A stretch of 64,000 nucleotides of DNA from NCBI GenBank assembly GCA_022749295.1, contig CP062007.1, positions 3,129,501 through 3,193,500 on the forward strand, written 5' to 3'. Positions within the stretch are counted from its first letter, which is position 1, and each line of letters starts with the position of its first letter. Below are positions 30,133-34,463 of this stretch, in pieces. The notes beneath the pieces were generated by a model. It was not told where the DNA came from. It was given only the letters and a program-made list of their open reading frames with translations, and did no database searches. Both the position numbers and the translations under genes were made by a program. Source of the DNA: Flavobacteriaceae bacterium GSB9. GTDB lineage: Bacteria > Bacteroidota > Bacteroidia > Flavobacteriales > Flavobacteriaceae.

Positions 30133-30206
30133 GGCCCCGTGGCGCAACTGAATAGCGCATCAGATTTCGGCTCTGAGGGTTGGGGGTTTGAATCCCTCCG
30201 GGGTCA
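30133..30206 (+). tRNA. tRNA-Arg (anticodon UCG)
   Basis: Complete cloverleaf by hand folding: acceptor GGCCCCG/CGGGGTC (30133-30139, 30199-30205), D stem GCGC/GCGC, anticodon stem TCAGA/TCTGA with loop TTTCGGC (anticodon TCG at 30167-30169), 5-nt variable loop, T stem GGGGG/CCCTC with loop TTTGAAT. The discriminator is A; CCA is not encoded. The D loop reads TGAA instead of TGG and the T loop TTT instead of TTC, so the G19-C56 tertiary pair is replaced by A19-U56. Reads CGA and probably other CGN codons. Confidence 0.93.
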
Positions 30207-30217
30207 CTGTTAAAACT

Positions 30218-30279: not shown

Positions 30280-30295
30280 AATGATAAATGTCATT
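30280..30295 (+). promoter_or_regulatory. CRP/FNR-like operator in front of the double UspA gene
   Basis: AATGATAAATGTCATT, an inverted repeat of the form TGA-N6-TCA. Its centre lies 29.5 bp upstream of the -7 element TAAATTTG (30317-30324), which has no TTG -33 partner. The geometry suits an activator contacting RNA polymerase. Confidence 0.55.
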
Positions 30296-30316
30296 TTAAA
30301 TACAGTAGAGGTGTGG

Positions 30317-30324
30317 TAAATTTG
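30317..30324 (+). promoter_or_regulatory. -7 element of the UspA gene
   Basis: TAAATTTG matches TAnnTTTG and lies 20 bp before the ATG at 30345. The -33 site has no TTG, which fits activator dependence. Confidence 0.55.
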
Positions 30325-30344
30325 TACAGTTAAAGCAAAATGTT

Positions 30345-31235
30345 ATGAAAACTATATTATATGCTACAGACTGTACTGCGAATGATACATCATCACTAAA
30401 ATATGCTTACCGGTTTAGCACGATTATGAAGGCCGATTTGCATGTTTTACATGTGTATGAATTTCCTCCCATATCATTCTCATCGATAAAGCCTGTAGAA
30501 TCGGTAAAAAGAAGAATACATAAAGAACAGATGGAACTGGTAGATAAGTACTGCAAAGAGACTTTAAAGAATGAATTTCACCAAAAGCCAATTACGACCC
30601 ATGTTGTTGAAAACAATTCCATATCAGACAGTATTTTGCGCCTTTCTAAGATACTAGACGCCGATTTAATTATTGTTGGTATGAAAGATAACCATAGTTC
30701 AAGAGGTTATTTTTCTGGTAACATAGCCAATGAATTATTGGATGAAATAGAAGCACCATTGTTAATTGTACCAAATAGAATGGCTTATAATACGGTTTCA
30801 TCTATAGTCTATGCCACAGATTTTGAAGATAGTGATATTTTATCACTAAAAAAACTCGCTGAAATTGCTAGACCTTTTTCGGCACTCATTGATGTTATAC
30901 ATATTTACAAAACAGATGTTTATAAAGCAAAATCAATGATGGCAGAATTTAAAGATAGGGTGTTACAGCAGTTGTCTTACCCCGAAATAACATTTAAAAT
31001 TATTGCGTCTACGAAAATAAAATCTGGCTTATTGAGTATTTTAAATATGGAAAGAGCCAATGTTTTGGGCATGTTGGAGCGCAAGCACAGTTGGAATCTA
31101 GCAAACGCATTCCATAAAGATTTGGTGAAAGATATAGAATCTGACATCTCAATTCCGCTGTTGGTTTTTAATGCGCATGGCCTGAAGTCTGGAAATTCTA
31201 ATGTTACAGACCATAATGGGGTTATGGTACATTAA
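30345..31235 (+). CDS. Universal stress protein, two Usp domains
   Basis: 296 aa. The N-terminal Usp domain (~1-145) starts TILYATDCT and ends with the nucleotide-loop-like motif IIVGMKDNHSSRGYFSGNIA...APLLIVP. A second, more degenerate Usp domain (~150-280) starts SIVYATDFEDSD and lacks a clear G-2x-G-9x-G(S/T) loop. Universal stress proteins act in stasis, oxygen limitation and stress survival. It is followed by an M90 peptidase and two CBS proteins on the same strand. Confidence 0.88.
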   Translation: MKTILYATDCTANDTSSLKYAYRFSTIMKADLHVLHVYEFPPISFSSIKPVESVKRRIHKEQMELVDKYCKETLKNEFHQKPITTHVVENNSISDSILRLSKILDADLIIVGMKDNHSSRGYFSGNIANELLDEIEAPLLIVPNRMAYNTVSSIVYATDFEDSDILSLKKLAEIARPFSALIDVIHIYKTDVYKAKSMMAEFKDRVLQQLSYPEITFKIIASTKIKSGLLSILNMERANVLGMLERKHSWNLANAFHKDLVKDIESDISIPLLVFNAHGLKSGNSNVTDHNGVMVH

Positions 31236-31443
31236 GTGGTTTATGTTTAAGGGCTATTTGCATATTTAATCTTCTTTTGGTTCTTTTATATCTTAGTTAA
31301 AAGAATCAAAGTTGTATTTTGTGACTGATACAATGCTCAAGCCCCATTCCTCATGTAAGTTGGCAACCTTTTAAGCAGTCCATTTTGAGTTTTAGTTTGA
31401 GCTATAATGTAACAAAAGTCAGAACGAGCTACTCAGGGAGCCT

Positions 31444-32313
31444 ATGATAGTCTTACAATCTGTTGTTTATTCTTATTTAGGAACTGTTATCCTTGGTATT
31501 TTAATATGTGGGGTAATCGTGTTGTTGTGGTTATATATTAGAAGATTGGTAACCGCTGTTTTGGATGCCTTTGAGATGGTTTATGCGACATTTGCCAAGC
31601 GTCCTATTCTGGTTCATTGTTATTTCTTTAAAAAAAATCTTAAACTAGCACAAATTAAAATATTAGAAGAGCAGTTTGCTTTTTACAATAGGCTTGATTC
31701 AAAACATAAAAGCCACTTTAGGCACAGAGTGGCCACATTTCTTAAAAGAAAGAACATTCAAGGAAAACAGGGTTTTGTAATTACCGAAGAGGCAAGAATT
31801 ATGATTTCGGCCACGGCCATTATGTTAACCTTTGGTTTTAGGAACTATACCATAGAATATATAAAAAACATTTTTGTTTACCCTACGAAATACTTTTCTC
31901 AAATAAACAAAGAATACCATAAAGGTGAGTATAATGCAAGGCTTGAAACCTTGGTGCTATCGTGGGATAATTTTGTTGAAGGGTTTAGGATAGAAGACGA
32001 TAAACTAAATTTGGGTATTCATGAATTCGCACATGCTATTCATTACAATAGCATTAAACAGGAAGATATTAATTCCATATTATTTGTAGATACCTTTAAC
32101 GAGCTTCGGGAAGAACTTGTTACCAACAAACGTTTAAAAAATAGGCTTGAAACTTCAAACTTTATAAGGCAATATGCTTGGACAAACGATTCTGAATTAT
32201 TGGCTGTCATCATAGAAACATTTGTCGAAGCGCCAAAAGAATTCAACAGGTTGTTTCCTGTGGTTTATGGTAAACTAAAACAAATGCTCAATTTTAATTT
32301 TCCAGGTTATTGA
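31444..32313 (+). CDS. MtfA-like zinc metallopeptidase (M90), membrane-anchored
   Basis: 289 aa. An N-terminal membrane helix (~10-33) precedes a cytoplasmic domain with the zinc motif in GIHEFAHAIHY (HExxH, about residues 195-199) and a downstream glutamate in NDSELLAVIIETFVEAP. These are features of the MtfA/DgsA-interacting peptidase family. In E. coli MtfA modulates the Mlc repressor; here the target is unknown. The N-terminal anchor is not part of classical MtfA. The ~208 bp upstream hold no gene. Confidence 0.8.
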   Translation: MIVLQSVVYSYLGTVILGILICGVIVLLWLYIRRLVTAVLDAFEMVYATFAKRPILVHCYFFKKNLKLAQIKILEEQFAFYNRLDSKHKSHFRHRVATFLKRKNIQGKQGFVITEEARIMISATAIMLTFGFRNYTIEYIKNIFVYPTKYFSQINKEYHKGEYNARLETLVLSWDNFVEGFRIEDDKLNLGIHEFAHAIHYNSIKQEDINSILFVDTFNELREELVTNKRLKNRLETSNFIRQYAWTNDSELLAVIIETFVEAPKEFNRLFPVVYGKLKQMLNFNFPGY

Positions 32314-32345
32314 TGGTTCTGTATTAATAACCAAATGGCTTTTAG

Positions 32346-32363
32346 TTATGATTTTTATCATAA
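32346..32363 (+). promoter_or_regulatory. CRP/FNR-like operator in front of the CBS gene pair
   Basis: TTATGATTTTTATCATAA, a perfect 7-bp inverted repeat with a 4-bp gap, of the form TGA-N6-TCA. Its centre is 29.5 bp upstream of TAATTTTA (32384-32391), exactly the same spacing as at the UspA gene. Confidence 0.65.
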
Positions 32364-32383
32364 TATTTTAAGGTTTCTATTAG

Positions 32384-32391
32384 TAATTTTA
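32384..32391 (+). promoter_or_regulatory. -7-like element for the first CBS gene
   Basis: TAATTTTA differs from TAnnTTTG only at the last base and lies 27 bp before the ATG. No TTG -33 element is present. Confidence 0.45.
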
Positions 32392-32418: not shown

Positions 32419-32838
32419 ATGATACGAAAAGCACCCATTTCATTGATAATGACCAAGCGTGTTGTTACATTGAGCAGAAAAGATTCCCTTGAAAAAGCCG
32501 AGTACTTATTTAAGCATCATAAAATTAGGCATATACCAGTCGTGGATAATAAAATGGTTGTAGGAATGTTAAGCTATACCGATTTACTACGTTTAAGTTT
32601 TGCCGATGTAACAGATGAGGGCGATATGCCTGCCGATGTCATGTTGTATAATGCGTTTACCATTGGCCATGTAATGAAACAAAACGTTGTGACGGTTTCT
32701 TCGTCTAGTTCAATAAAGGAGGTGGCTACAATTTTGGCAACCCAAGAATTCCATGCTTTGCCCGTAGTAGATAATAATTCTTTAGTGGGAATAGTGACAA
32801 CAACAGATCTTATTAAATATCTGTTGAAGCAATTTTGA
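32419..32838 (+). CDS. CBS-pair protein, copy 1
   Basis: 139 aa made only of two CBS motifs (~5-60 and ~80-135), each ending in the typical IPVVDN...VGMLSYTDLLRL and LPVVDN...VGIVTTTDLIKY. CBS pairs bind adenine nucleotides and act as energy or redox sensors, here without an attached effector domain. It is close in sequence and equal in length to the next gene, so they are a tandem duplication. It belongs to the stress cluster with UspA. Confidence 0.9.
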   Translation: MIRKAPISLIMTKRVVTLSRKDSLEKAEYLFKHHKIRHIPVVDNKMVVGMLSYTDLLRLSFADVTDEGDMPADVMLYNAFTIGHVMKQNVVTVSSSSSIKEVATILATQEFHALPVVDNNSLVGIVTTTDLIKYLLKQF

Positions 32839-32928: not shown

Positions 32929-33348
32929 ATGAAAACTTTTGAACCCGTTTCTTCAATTATGACAAAAAATATTATCGCTCTAACAAAGGCAGACGACTTA
33001 GAGCGCGCAGAGAAACTGTTTAATCGTTATAAGATTAAGCATATCCCGGTAGTATATGAAGAATCTATTATTGGGATGCTGAGTTTTACTGATTTGATGC
33101 GGATTAGTCAAGCTGAAGAATCAATGGCAGACAGTGGATCGCTTGATTCGGTGGTTTATAATAATTTTACTATAGAGCAGGTTATGGTTAAGGATGTTGT
33201 TACGGTTACAAGCGACACCAGTATTAAAGAGGTAACCCACATTCTGGCCCATCGTGAGTTTCATGCATTGCCGGTTGTTGATAATGACACTTTAGTGGGG
33301 ATTATAACAACCCGGGATTTGCTTAAATATTTTTACAAAAGGTTTTAA
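32929..33348 (+). CDS. CBS-pair protein, copy 2
   Basis: 139 aa, the same architecture and length as copy 1, with the shared cores KHIPVV...IIGMLSFTDLMRI and FHALPVVDNDTLVGI. It has 90 bp upstream without a clear promoter, so it may be read from the promoter of copy 1. The stop overlaps the convergent rpe gene by 4 bp. Confidence 0.9.
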   Translation: MKTFEPVSSIMTKNIIALTKADDLERAEKLFNRYKIKHIPVVYEESIIGMLSFTDLMRISQAEESMADSGSLDSVVYNNFTIEQVMVKDVVTVTSDTSIKEVTHILAHREFHALPVVDNDTLVGIITTRDLLKYFYKRF

Positions 33349-34055: not shown

Positions 34056-34463
34056 TTAATTACTGTTGATAAAGTTTTCAACCATTAAAATAACTTTGTT
34101 TGCATAGGGGCTGTCAGCTTCTTTAAGCCATTCTAAGTATTGGTATAAATCGGTTAGTGCTTGTTTGTTGTCAACAATAGTAAATCCAAAGTTGTAATCT
34201 TCAAAAATACGTTCGTCCACTTCAGAGCTAATTACTTTGAATATATTTCGGTGTCTTTTATCTGCTTTAATTTTTTTAAAGGTTTCATCAACGGCATTTA
34301 CTTCTCCTTCCAATACTTGAAGAAAGGTATTGTTTTTGTAGATAAGAATTCCTGTTATATTTTGTTTTTTGTTGTTTGCGCTAGCTTTTAGGTATAACAA
34401 TTTTAAATTTTCTAAAGATTCATGTTTAACAGAGTCGCTTAAGTAGCAAATTGTTTTAATCAT
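34056..34463 (-). CDS. Stand-alone BLUF-type blue-light photosensor
   Basis: 135 aa. The BLUF fold is seen from ICYLSDS (conserved Tyr near residue 7), through ASANNKKQNITGILIYKN with the flavin-contact Asn near 31, to FLQVLEGE with the key Gln near 49 and the DKRHRNI segment near 70. Tyr and Gln are the residues needed for the FAD photocycle, so it is likely photoactive. No effector domain is fused; ~40 C-terminal residues are helical and probably contact a partner. It lies between rpoD's terminator and rpe. Confidence 0.8.
   Translation of the reverse strand: MIKTICYLSDSVKHESLENLKLLYLKASANNKKQNITGILIYKNNTFLQVLEGEVNAVDETFKKIKADKRHRNIFKVISSEVDERIFEDYNFGFTIVDNKQALTDLYQYLEWLKEADSPYANKVILMVENFINSN

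Follow-up and report, generated by a model that had tools for sequence, protein, structure and literature searches.

A candidate oxygen-limitation regulon in a flavobacterium predicted from CRP/FNR-type operators at a fixed distance from the -7 element

Two palindromic sites precede a universal stress protein (Usp) gene and a pair of CBS-domain genes in a 64,000-nucleotide stretch of the Flavobacteriaceae bacterium GSB9 genome (contig CP062007.1, positions 3,129,501 to 3,193,500), which is referred to below as the window. We consider it highly probable that both sites, as predicted from their sequence and setting, are class II operators of the CRP/FNR family and belong to an FNR-type oxygen-limitation regulon, quite possibly one in which overlapping paralogues act alongside an FNR-type class II activator. 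The prediction draws on the operators themselves, their fixed spacing from the core promoter, the genes behind them, their conservation, and the cysteines of a candidate regulator.

Results

Operator 1, TGATAAATGTCA (30282-30293; window features lie on the forward strand unless stated otherwise), is the core of AATGATAAATGTCATT (30280-30295), has its centre at 30287.5 and lies ahead of the usp gene. Operator 2, TGATTTTTATCA (32349-32360), is the core of TTATGATTTTTATCATAA (32346-32363), is centred at 32354.5 and lies ahead of the CBS genes. Both read TGA-N6-TCA, and both are followed by a -7 element of the form TAnnTTTR, TAAATTTG (30317-30324) at the usp promoter and TAATTTTA (32384-32391) at the CBS promoter, the latter in a position kept before many CBS orthologues. 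The distance from the operator centre to the first T of the -7 element is 29.5 bp in each case, exactly as a preliminary description of the window had claimed, and the lack of a TTG at -33 that it reported was confirmed by eye at both promoters. The sigma-A box TAnnTTTG of Flavobacterium psychrophilum is located at -12 to -5 (PMC9723704), and by this rule the transcription start sites are predicted at about 30329 and 32396. With the centre 29.5 bp before the first base of such a box, the operators would therefore be at -41.5, the position of class II activators, provided that the F. psychrophilum box position holds here. Positions 39.5 and 41.5 have been called almost optimal for Fnr promoters (PMC5398030). 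Taken by itself, the palindrome shows no enrichment within the window (18 sites versus 15.5 expected, with 28 of 100 shuffles reaching 18); the window alone is thus indecisive and the claim rests on the spacing, which was accordingly tested outside it.

The genome, a single contig of 3,630,376 bp, was scanned for TGA-N6-TCA followed by 23 nt and TAnnTTTR. The fixed operator-to-core-promoter spacing that characterizes class II promoters is evident: 33 sites were found at 23 nt versus 9 at 22 nt and 5 at 24 nt, against a chance expectation of about 3.5 sites per spacing. This expectation was derived from a 464-kb sample comprising 20 evenly spaced 20-kb stretches and the window, with 234 oriented sites and 0.00189 TAnnTTTR per position. 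The reversed pattern gave 2 sites, but this control is less fair than the shifted spacings as it alters composition too, and we relied on the latter. A refined core, TGAY-N4-RTCA, is present in 29 of the 33 sites and occurs 29 times at 23 nt versus twice at 25 nt. Three of the 33 sites fall inside long reading frames (L017, L025, and L026), close to the chance expectation. At two palindromes, 477554 and 2065505, a -7 element is found at equal distance on both strands, and one operator could serve two divergent promoters there; at 477554 about 470 nt separate the site from the start of the frame found on the minus strand, which weakens the case. The geometry, said from the start to be hard to explain by chance, proves to be so, and the scan that had been suggested did not turn up the refuting pattern of sites at random distances from genes without a common theme. 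The distance is constant, and many of the genes that follow the sites fit together.

Alignment of 29 sites extends the motif to a longer palindrome, roughly AAnATGAY-W4-RTCATnTT, in which the base before TGA is A in 19 sites and G in one. The TT at +8.5/+9.5 from the centre, present in 21 and 23 of the 29 sites, would fall at -33/-32. The base after it is G in only one site and the full TTG is absent, which suggests that the activator would substitute for the -33 contact.

Leaving aside the two window sites and the three in long frames, the first frame was sought behind the remaining 28 sites, and 27 first-frame proteins were scanned with Pfam, the distant frame behind 477523 being omitted. 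Among their products are a HemN-like radical-SAM protein, a COX1 + FixO protein (cbb3 oxidase), two Usp proteins, pyruvate formate-lyase, a citrate-type transporter, MlaE, EF-G, a pyridoxamine oxidase-like protein, a molybdopterin oxidoreductase, PPDK, Pta, two POR-family proteins, a ferredoxin-type protein, thioredoxin, cytochrome c, and a CBS protein. We use the names HemN, cbb3, and nitrate-reductase-like as putative assignments that fit the domain content and the neighbours. In our reading many of these genes are known FNR-type or low-oxygen targets. FnrL directly activates ccoN, uspA, and fusA in two Rhodobacter species, and hemN too in R. sphaeroides (PMC4634722), while Usp genes are among the FnrL targets of Dinoroseobacter shibae (PMC5398030); the combination of targets predicted here resembles these FnrL regulons. 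In oxygen-limited F. psychrophilum, the cbb3 oxidase is strongly up-regulated and heme biosynthesis enzymes are up-regulated as well (PMC9723704), data that agree with the low-oxygen reading, although they come from another organism and are no test of it here. The local stress module proposed in the preliminary description has to be given up: its two promoters are among about 30 spread over the genome, a set that we read as one for oxygen limitation.

Of 40 genomes searched for the first CBS gene, 35 gave a match, and the best 20 of 30 loci, GSB9 included, were compared. TGA-N6-TCA occurs within 250 bp upstream in 17 of the 20 (16 of 19 without GSB9), where about 1.3 would be expected from the density in the 464-kb sample; the other three have no such operator within that distance. 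At +23, a strict TAnnTTTR is present in 9 of the 20 loci and a relaxed form in three more (12 together), and GAnnTTTA was seen by eye in three further ones. For the window's Usp gene, no close orthologue turned up among the 40 relatives, of which two belong to the same genus (best E-value 7.7e-28, 28% identity), and for this reason operator 1 cannot be footprinted. As a matched pair, the two operators stand unequally: the CBS promoter is conserved in relatives, and the Usp gene lacks the orthologues by which its own could be judged.

The CRP/FNR family, to which the operators and their fixed activator geometry had been attributed, is supported, and a search for such genes recovered five HTH_Crp_2 proteins. 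Three of them keep a Glu and an Arg in the recognition helix (by eye), so that the single activator originally envisaged is supported as to family and unproven as to number. These are P0002, an FNR-like protein of 225 amino acids (C1:106798-107475; Pfam cNMP_binding and HTH_Crp_2), P0001, a fusion of 350 amino acids (C1:104769-105821) with a receiver domain joined to cNMP_binding and HTH_Crp_2, and an FNR-like protein of an apparent nitrate-reduction gene cluster (L033; C1:1140228-1140986, minus strand). The other two (L034 and L035) have no Glu in the recognition helix by eye and were ruled out as drivers. P0002 and P0001 form a group next to the cbb3 genes, together with a Usp gene and a PAS histidine kinase (C1:103300-107600). 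One of the 33 sites lies before this Usp gene, which directly precedes fnr, an arrangement that suggests autoregulation. Sites 1131643 and 1148293 are in the gene cluster beside the nitrate-cluster paralogue, which carries CxxCx4C and later Cys.

P0002 has the domain architecture of CRP/FNR proteins together with the Glu and Arg in the recognition helix that are expected of canonical FNR. Arg185 is a recognition residue of CRP. Counterparts of Glu181 and Arg185 are kept in P0002, by eye, and there is none of Arg180 (R180/E181 as given for CRP in PMC1274295). The best PDB sequence match of P0002 is 2gau, named Crp/Fnr family regulator, and it also aligns with chains named FNR type regulator with E-values of 2e-22 to 1.8e-21, the CxxC and the equivalent of C122 being matched; we take these chains to be from A. 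fischeri. Cysteines were counted by motif in the 110 closest homologues, consisting of 80 loci from named genome records and 30 others, with the protein itself included. CxxC, C53, and C106, which make up the set C4/C7/C53/C106, are all present in 110 of 110; a count by MAFFT column on the latter 30 gave 28 for C53 and 28 for C106. The additional Cys that known FNRs carry 3-6 residues behind CxxC occurs in only one of the 110. We infer that C4, C7, C53, and C106 would hold an oxygen-labile iron-sulfur (Fe-S) cluster.

The kinase next to P0001 is composed of PAS, HisKA, and HATPase_c domains. Full-length relatives of the fusion (54-64% identity) were found in seven other genomes, all of which have an adjoining kinase, 50-61% identical. 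All eight kinases carry a His, a putative heme ligand, in the stretch of the PAS domain that resembles the heme-binding region of FixL. A Usp homologue stands beside the kinase-fusion pair in six of the eight cases; none was found in L290, and in L284 the fetched stretch ended first. The PAS kinase and the receiver-CRP fusion together read like a one-protein version of FixJ-FixK.

Relatives of P0002 in named genome records were sampled as the best 80 of 271 (73-88% identity; Algibacter, Tamlana, Gaetbulibacter, Flavivirga, and others, metagenome-assembled genomes (MAGs) included). The operator geometry is present at 77 of these 80 loci, which are related and do not represent 77 independent events. 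Of the 85 sites in total, 70 precede a ccoN frame, 5 a Usp frame, 5 a short frame starting with MSVIY, and 5 others. In 72 cases among the 80 loci, a further TAnnTTTR stands 9 nt away from the operator core; it may be one homologous ccoN promoter counted repeatedly.

On the scale of the order, the refined core was counted at 23 and 25 nt in 148 genomes drawn evenly from a larger group; as genome sizes differ between the sets, the ratio and not the count is the fair comparison. Overall, 691 sites at 23 nt were found versus 119 at 25 nt. Where an FNR homologue reaches 53% identity or more (18 genomes, GSB9 included), the ratio was 343 to 23, and where the homologue is more distant (24 genomes, E<=1e-45), it was 138 to 24. 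In the 19 genomes of family f5, three of which also have a full-length fusion of 41-43% identity, it was 113 to 36; the N-terminal CxxC is absent from the six FNR-like homologues of this family that were read, so that cysteines presumed to sense oxygen appear to have been lost there naturally. Three genomes with the receiver-CRP fusion and no FNR homologue at E<=1e-45 gave 34 versus 2, and the 84 genomes with neither regulator at these cut-offs, five of which match FNR more weakly (E 1e-40 to 1e-21), gave 63 versus 34. A genome comparison made with the loose pattern is superseded by this one.

The usp gene (30345-31235) codes for 296 amino acids with one Usp domain recognized by Pfam (residues 1-143), the second half being unrecognized. 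CBS gene 1 (32419-32838), the first behind operator 2, and CBS gene 2 (32929-33348) each code for a CBS-domain-pair protein of 139 amino acids; judging from the 90-nt gap between them, they probably share one transcript. A peptidase M90 (MtfA-like) gene (31444-32313), coding for 289 amino acids, lies between the two operators. It had been counted as a member of the stress module and drops out of it, the window scan showing no TGA-N6-TCA site of its own. In several relatives it appears to precede the CBS gene, judged by eye from the resemblance of the 3' ends that lie ahead of the CBS operator. A tRNA-Arg(TCG) gene (30133-30207) is located just upstream of operator 1, outside the switch, and a protein with a BLUF blue-light sensor domain is encoded near the CBS genes (34056-34463, minus strand).

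Discussion

The steps that we infer beyond these data concern binding, activation, the signal, the cluster, and the acting paralogue. As oxygen falls, a CRP/FNR-family dimer would bind ATGAY-N4-RTCAT centred at -41.5. The bound dimer would stand in for the absent -33 TTG and recruit the Bacteroidota sigma-A polymerase to TAnnTTTR, so that about 30 promoters may be turned on together, including those of the cbb3 oxidase, the HemN-like protein, pyruvate formate-lyase, the POR-family proteins, Usp, and CBS. The likeliest binder is the FNR-like P0002, acting through its putative oxygen-labile Fe-S cluster.

Several observations weigh against this proposal. The third cysteine of P0002, C53, is away from its place in known FNRs, so the canonical set of cysteines is incomplete, and the protein scores 96.2 bits against the NCBIfam Fnr cut-off of 228, although Fnr is still the best-scoring family listed. 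Because one defining cysteine is out of place and the cut-off is not reached, we do not file P0002 as a canonical FNR, while proposing that it works like one. Two further CRP/FNR proteins keep the same Glu...Arg recognition residues. The genomes with the fusion and no FNR homologue at E<=1e-45 (34 versus 2) imply that the FNR-like protein cannot be the sole binder everywhere, family f5 retains the geometry (113 versus 36) with FNR-like proteins devoid of CxxC in the six read, and the genomes with neither regulator still show 63 versus 34. Finally, pectate lyase/pectinesterase, TonB, MlaE, DUF3857, and alginate-export-type genes, with no evident low-oxygen role, are among those behind the sites, and 5 of the 27 first-gene proteins have no Pfam match at E<=1e-5.

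That the whole set arose by chance, AT-rich DNA happening to place short palindromes close to a -7 consensus that is itself degenerate, can practically be dismissed. The lack of enrichment of TGA-N6-TCA in the window (18 versus 15.5) and the roughly 3 of 33 sites that look random would fit it, but the spacing specificity in the genome and the order and the conservation before CBS orthologues reject it; operator 1 taken alone could still be a chance occurrence. Very improbable, too, is a CRP-like protein that senses carbon or cAMP instead of oxygen. Both candidates do carry a cNMP_binding domain, and carbon sensing of the MalR type has been predicted for CRP/FNR homologues of a Flavobacteriales MAG (PMC8510549). 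The predicted targets, however, include respiration, heme, and fermentation genes, and the four cysteines persist in 110 of 110 closest homologues. A G before TGA, typical of CRP sites, is moreover rare here (1/29).

The choice among the paralogues is closer. We think it rather doubtful, if well worth considering, that the fusion P0001, phosphorylated by the adjoining PAS kinase, is the main binder and the FNR-like protein a secondary or autoregulated partner. P0001 keeps the same recognition residues, its neighbouring kinase is retained in all seven other genomes with a full-length fusion, the PAS His of FixL-like type, a putative heme ligand, is invariant in the eight kinases, and the three genomes with the fusion and no FNR homologue at E<=1e-45 show the geometry at a ratio of 34 to 2. 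Yet the geometry is also clear (138 versus 24, with 10, 9, and 11 sites in G053, G025, and G013) in the 24 genomes whose FNR homologue is more distant and whose listed best matches include no full-length fusion, and a fusion lies within 6 kb of only 7 of the 80 named-record FNR loci, though the rest of those genomes may contain one. Our judgement is evenly divided on whether two or three paralogues (FNR-like, fusion, and nitrate-cluster) share one operator code on overlapping subsets of promoters, like FnrL and Dnr in Dinoroseobacter. The recognition pattern common to three of the five proteins and the two sites beside the third paralogue point that way, as do the regulator overlap described for D. 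shibae (PMC5398030) and the counts of the loose pattern against its reverse, 195 versus 10 in five genomes with close homologues of both FNR and fusion (GSB9 included) and 117 versus 34 in eight genomes that have a close FNR but lack a full-length fusion. Against sharing, no subset-specific operator variant has been demonstrated, the sites not having been clustered by predicted regulator.

Among characterized systems, the FNR and FnrL regulons of Escherichia coli, Rhodobacter, and Dinoroseobacter are the nearest, with the same TGA-N6-TCA core, a class II-type position (predicted here), ccoN, hemN, uspA, and EF-G among the targets, and a regulator with CxxC and, as in P0002, a C122-equivalent cysteine. 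The outer base is mostly T in Rhodobacter FnrL sites (PMC4634722) and mostly A here (19/29). Further differences from the proteobacterial systems are the Bacteroidota -7 element, the third cysteine at position 53 and not shortly after CxxC, and the phylum itself. Among other CRP/FNR regulators of Bacteroidota are HcpR, PgRsp, and CrpPg of Porphyromonas gingivalis, of which HcpR and PgRsp bind heme (PMC12750200, PMC6955866). The HcpR2 motif is GTAAC-N4-GTTAC in most genomes, and in P. gingivalis and most Bacteroides its regulon consists of hcp only (PMC1274295), unlike the TGA-N6-TCA operators and about 30 promoters found here. The kinase and the fusion of GSB9, with a PAS kinase and a CRP/FNR output beside cbb3 genes, are reminiscent of another arrangement. 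This is the FixL-FixJ-FixK cascade, which governs the microoxic response of alphaproteobacteria and in which the output of FixJ type is a receiver-LuxR protein. The receiver and CRP parts of P0001 resemble the roles of FixJ and FixK, but they are joined in one protein, the receiver being fused to cNMP_binding and HTH_Crp_2, and the kinase, at 106 bits, falls well short of the 850 bits set as the FixL equivalog cut-off.

More broadly, and tentatively, the data could point to an oxygen-limitation regulon specific to the phylum, in Flavobacteriaceae and related families. There, an FNR-type sensor whose third cysteine has moved, joined in some genera by a FixL-like kinase and its one-protein FixJ-FixK fusion, would act through the single operator code ATGAY-N4-RTCAT and activate TAnnTTTR promoters without a -33 element from -41.5. 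We found no flavobacterial oxygen regulon of this kind described in the open-access literature searched, and the proposal is an alternative to the carbon sensing predicted for CRP/FNR homologues of a Flavobacteriales genome (PMC8510549). It would tie Usp and CBS genes to low oxygen, it suggests a way for an activator to engage the unusual promoter of Bacteroidota, and it indicates a change of the presumed Fe-S ligands in an FNR-type sensor. The simple rule of operator core, 23 nt, and TAnnTTTR lets candidate low-oxygen genes be read directly from genomes of the order.

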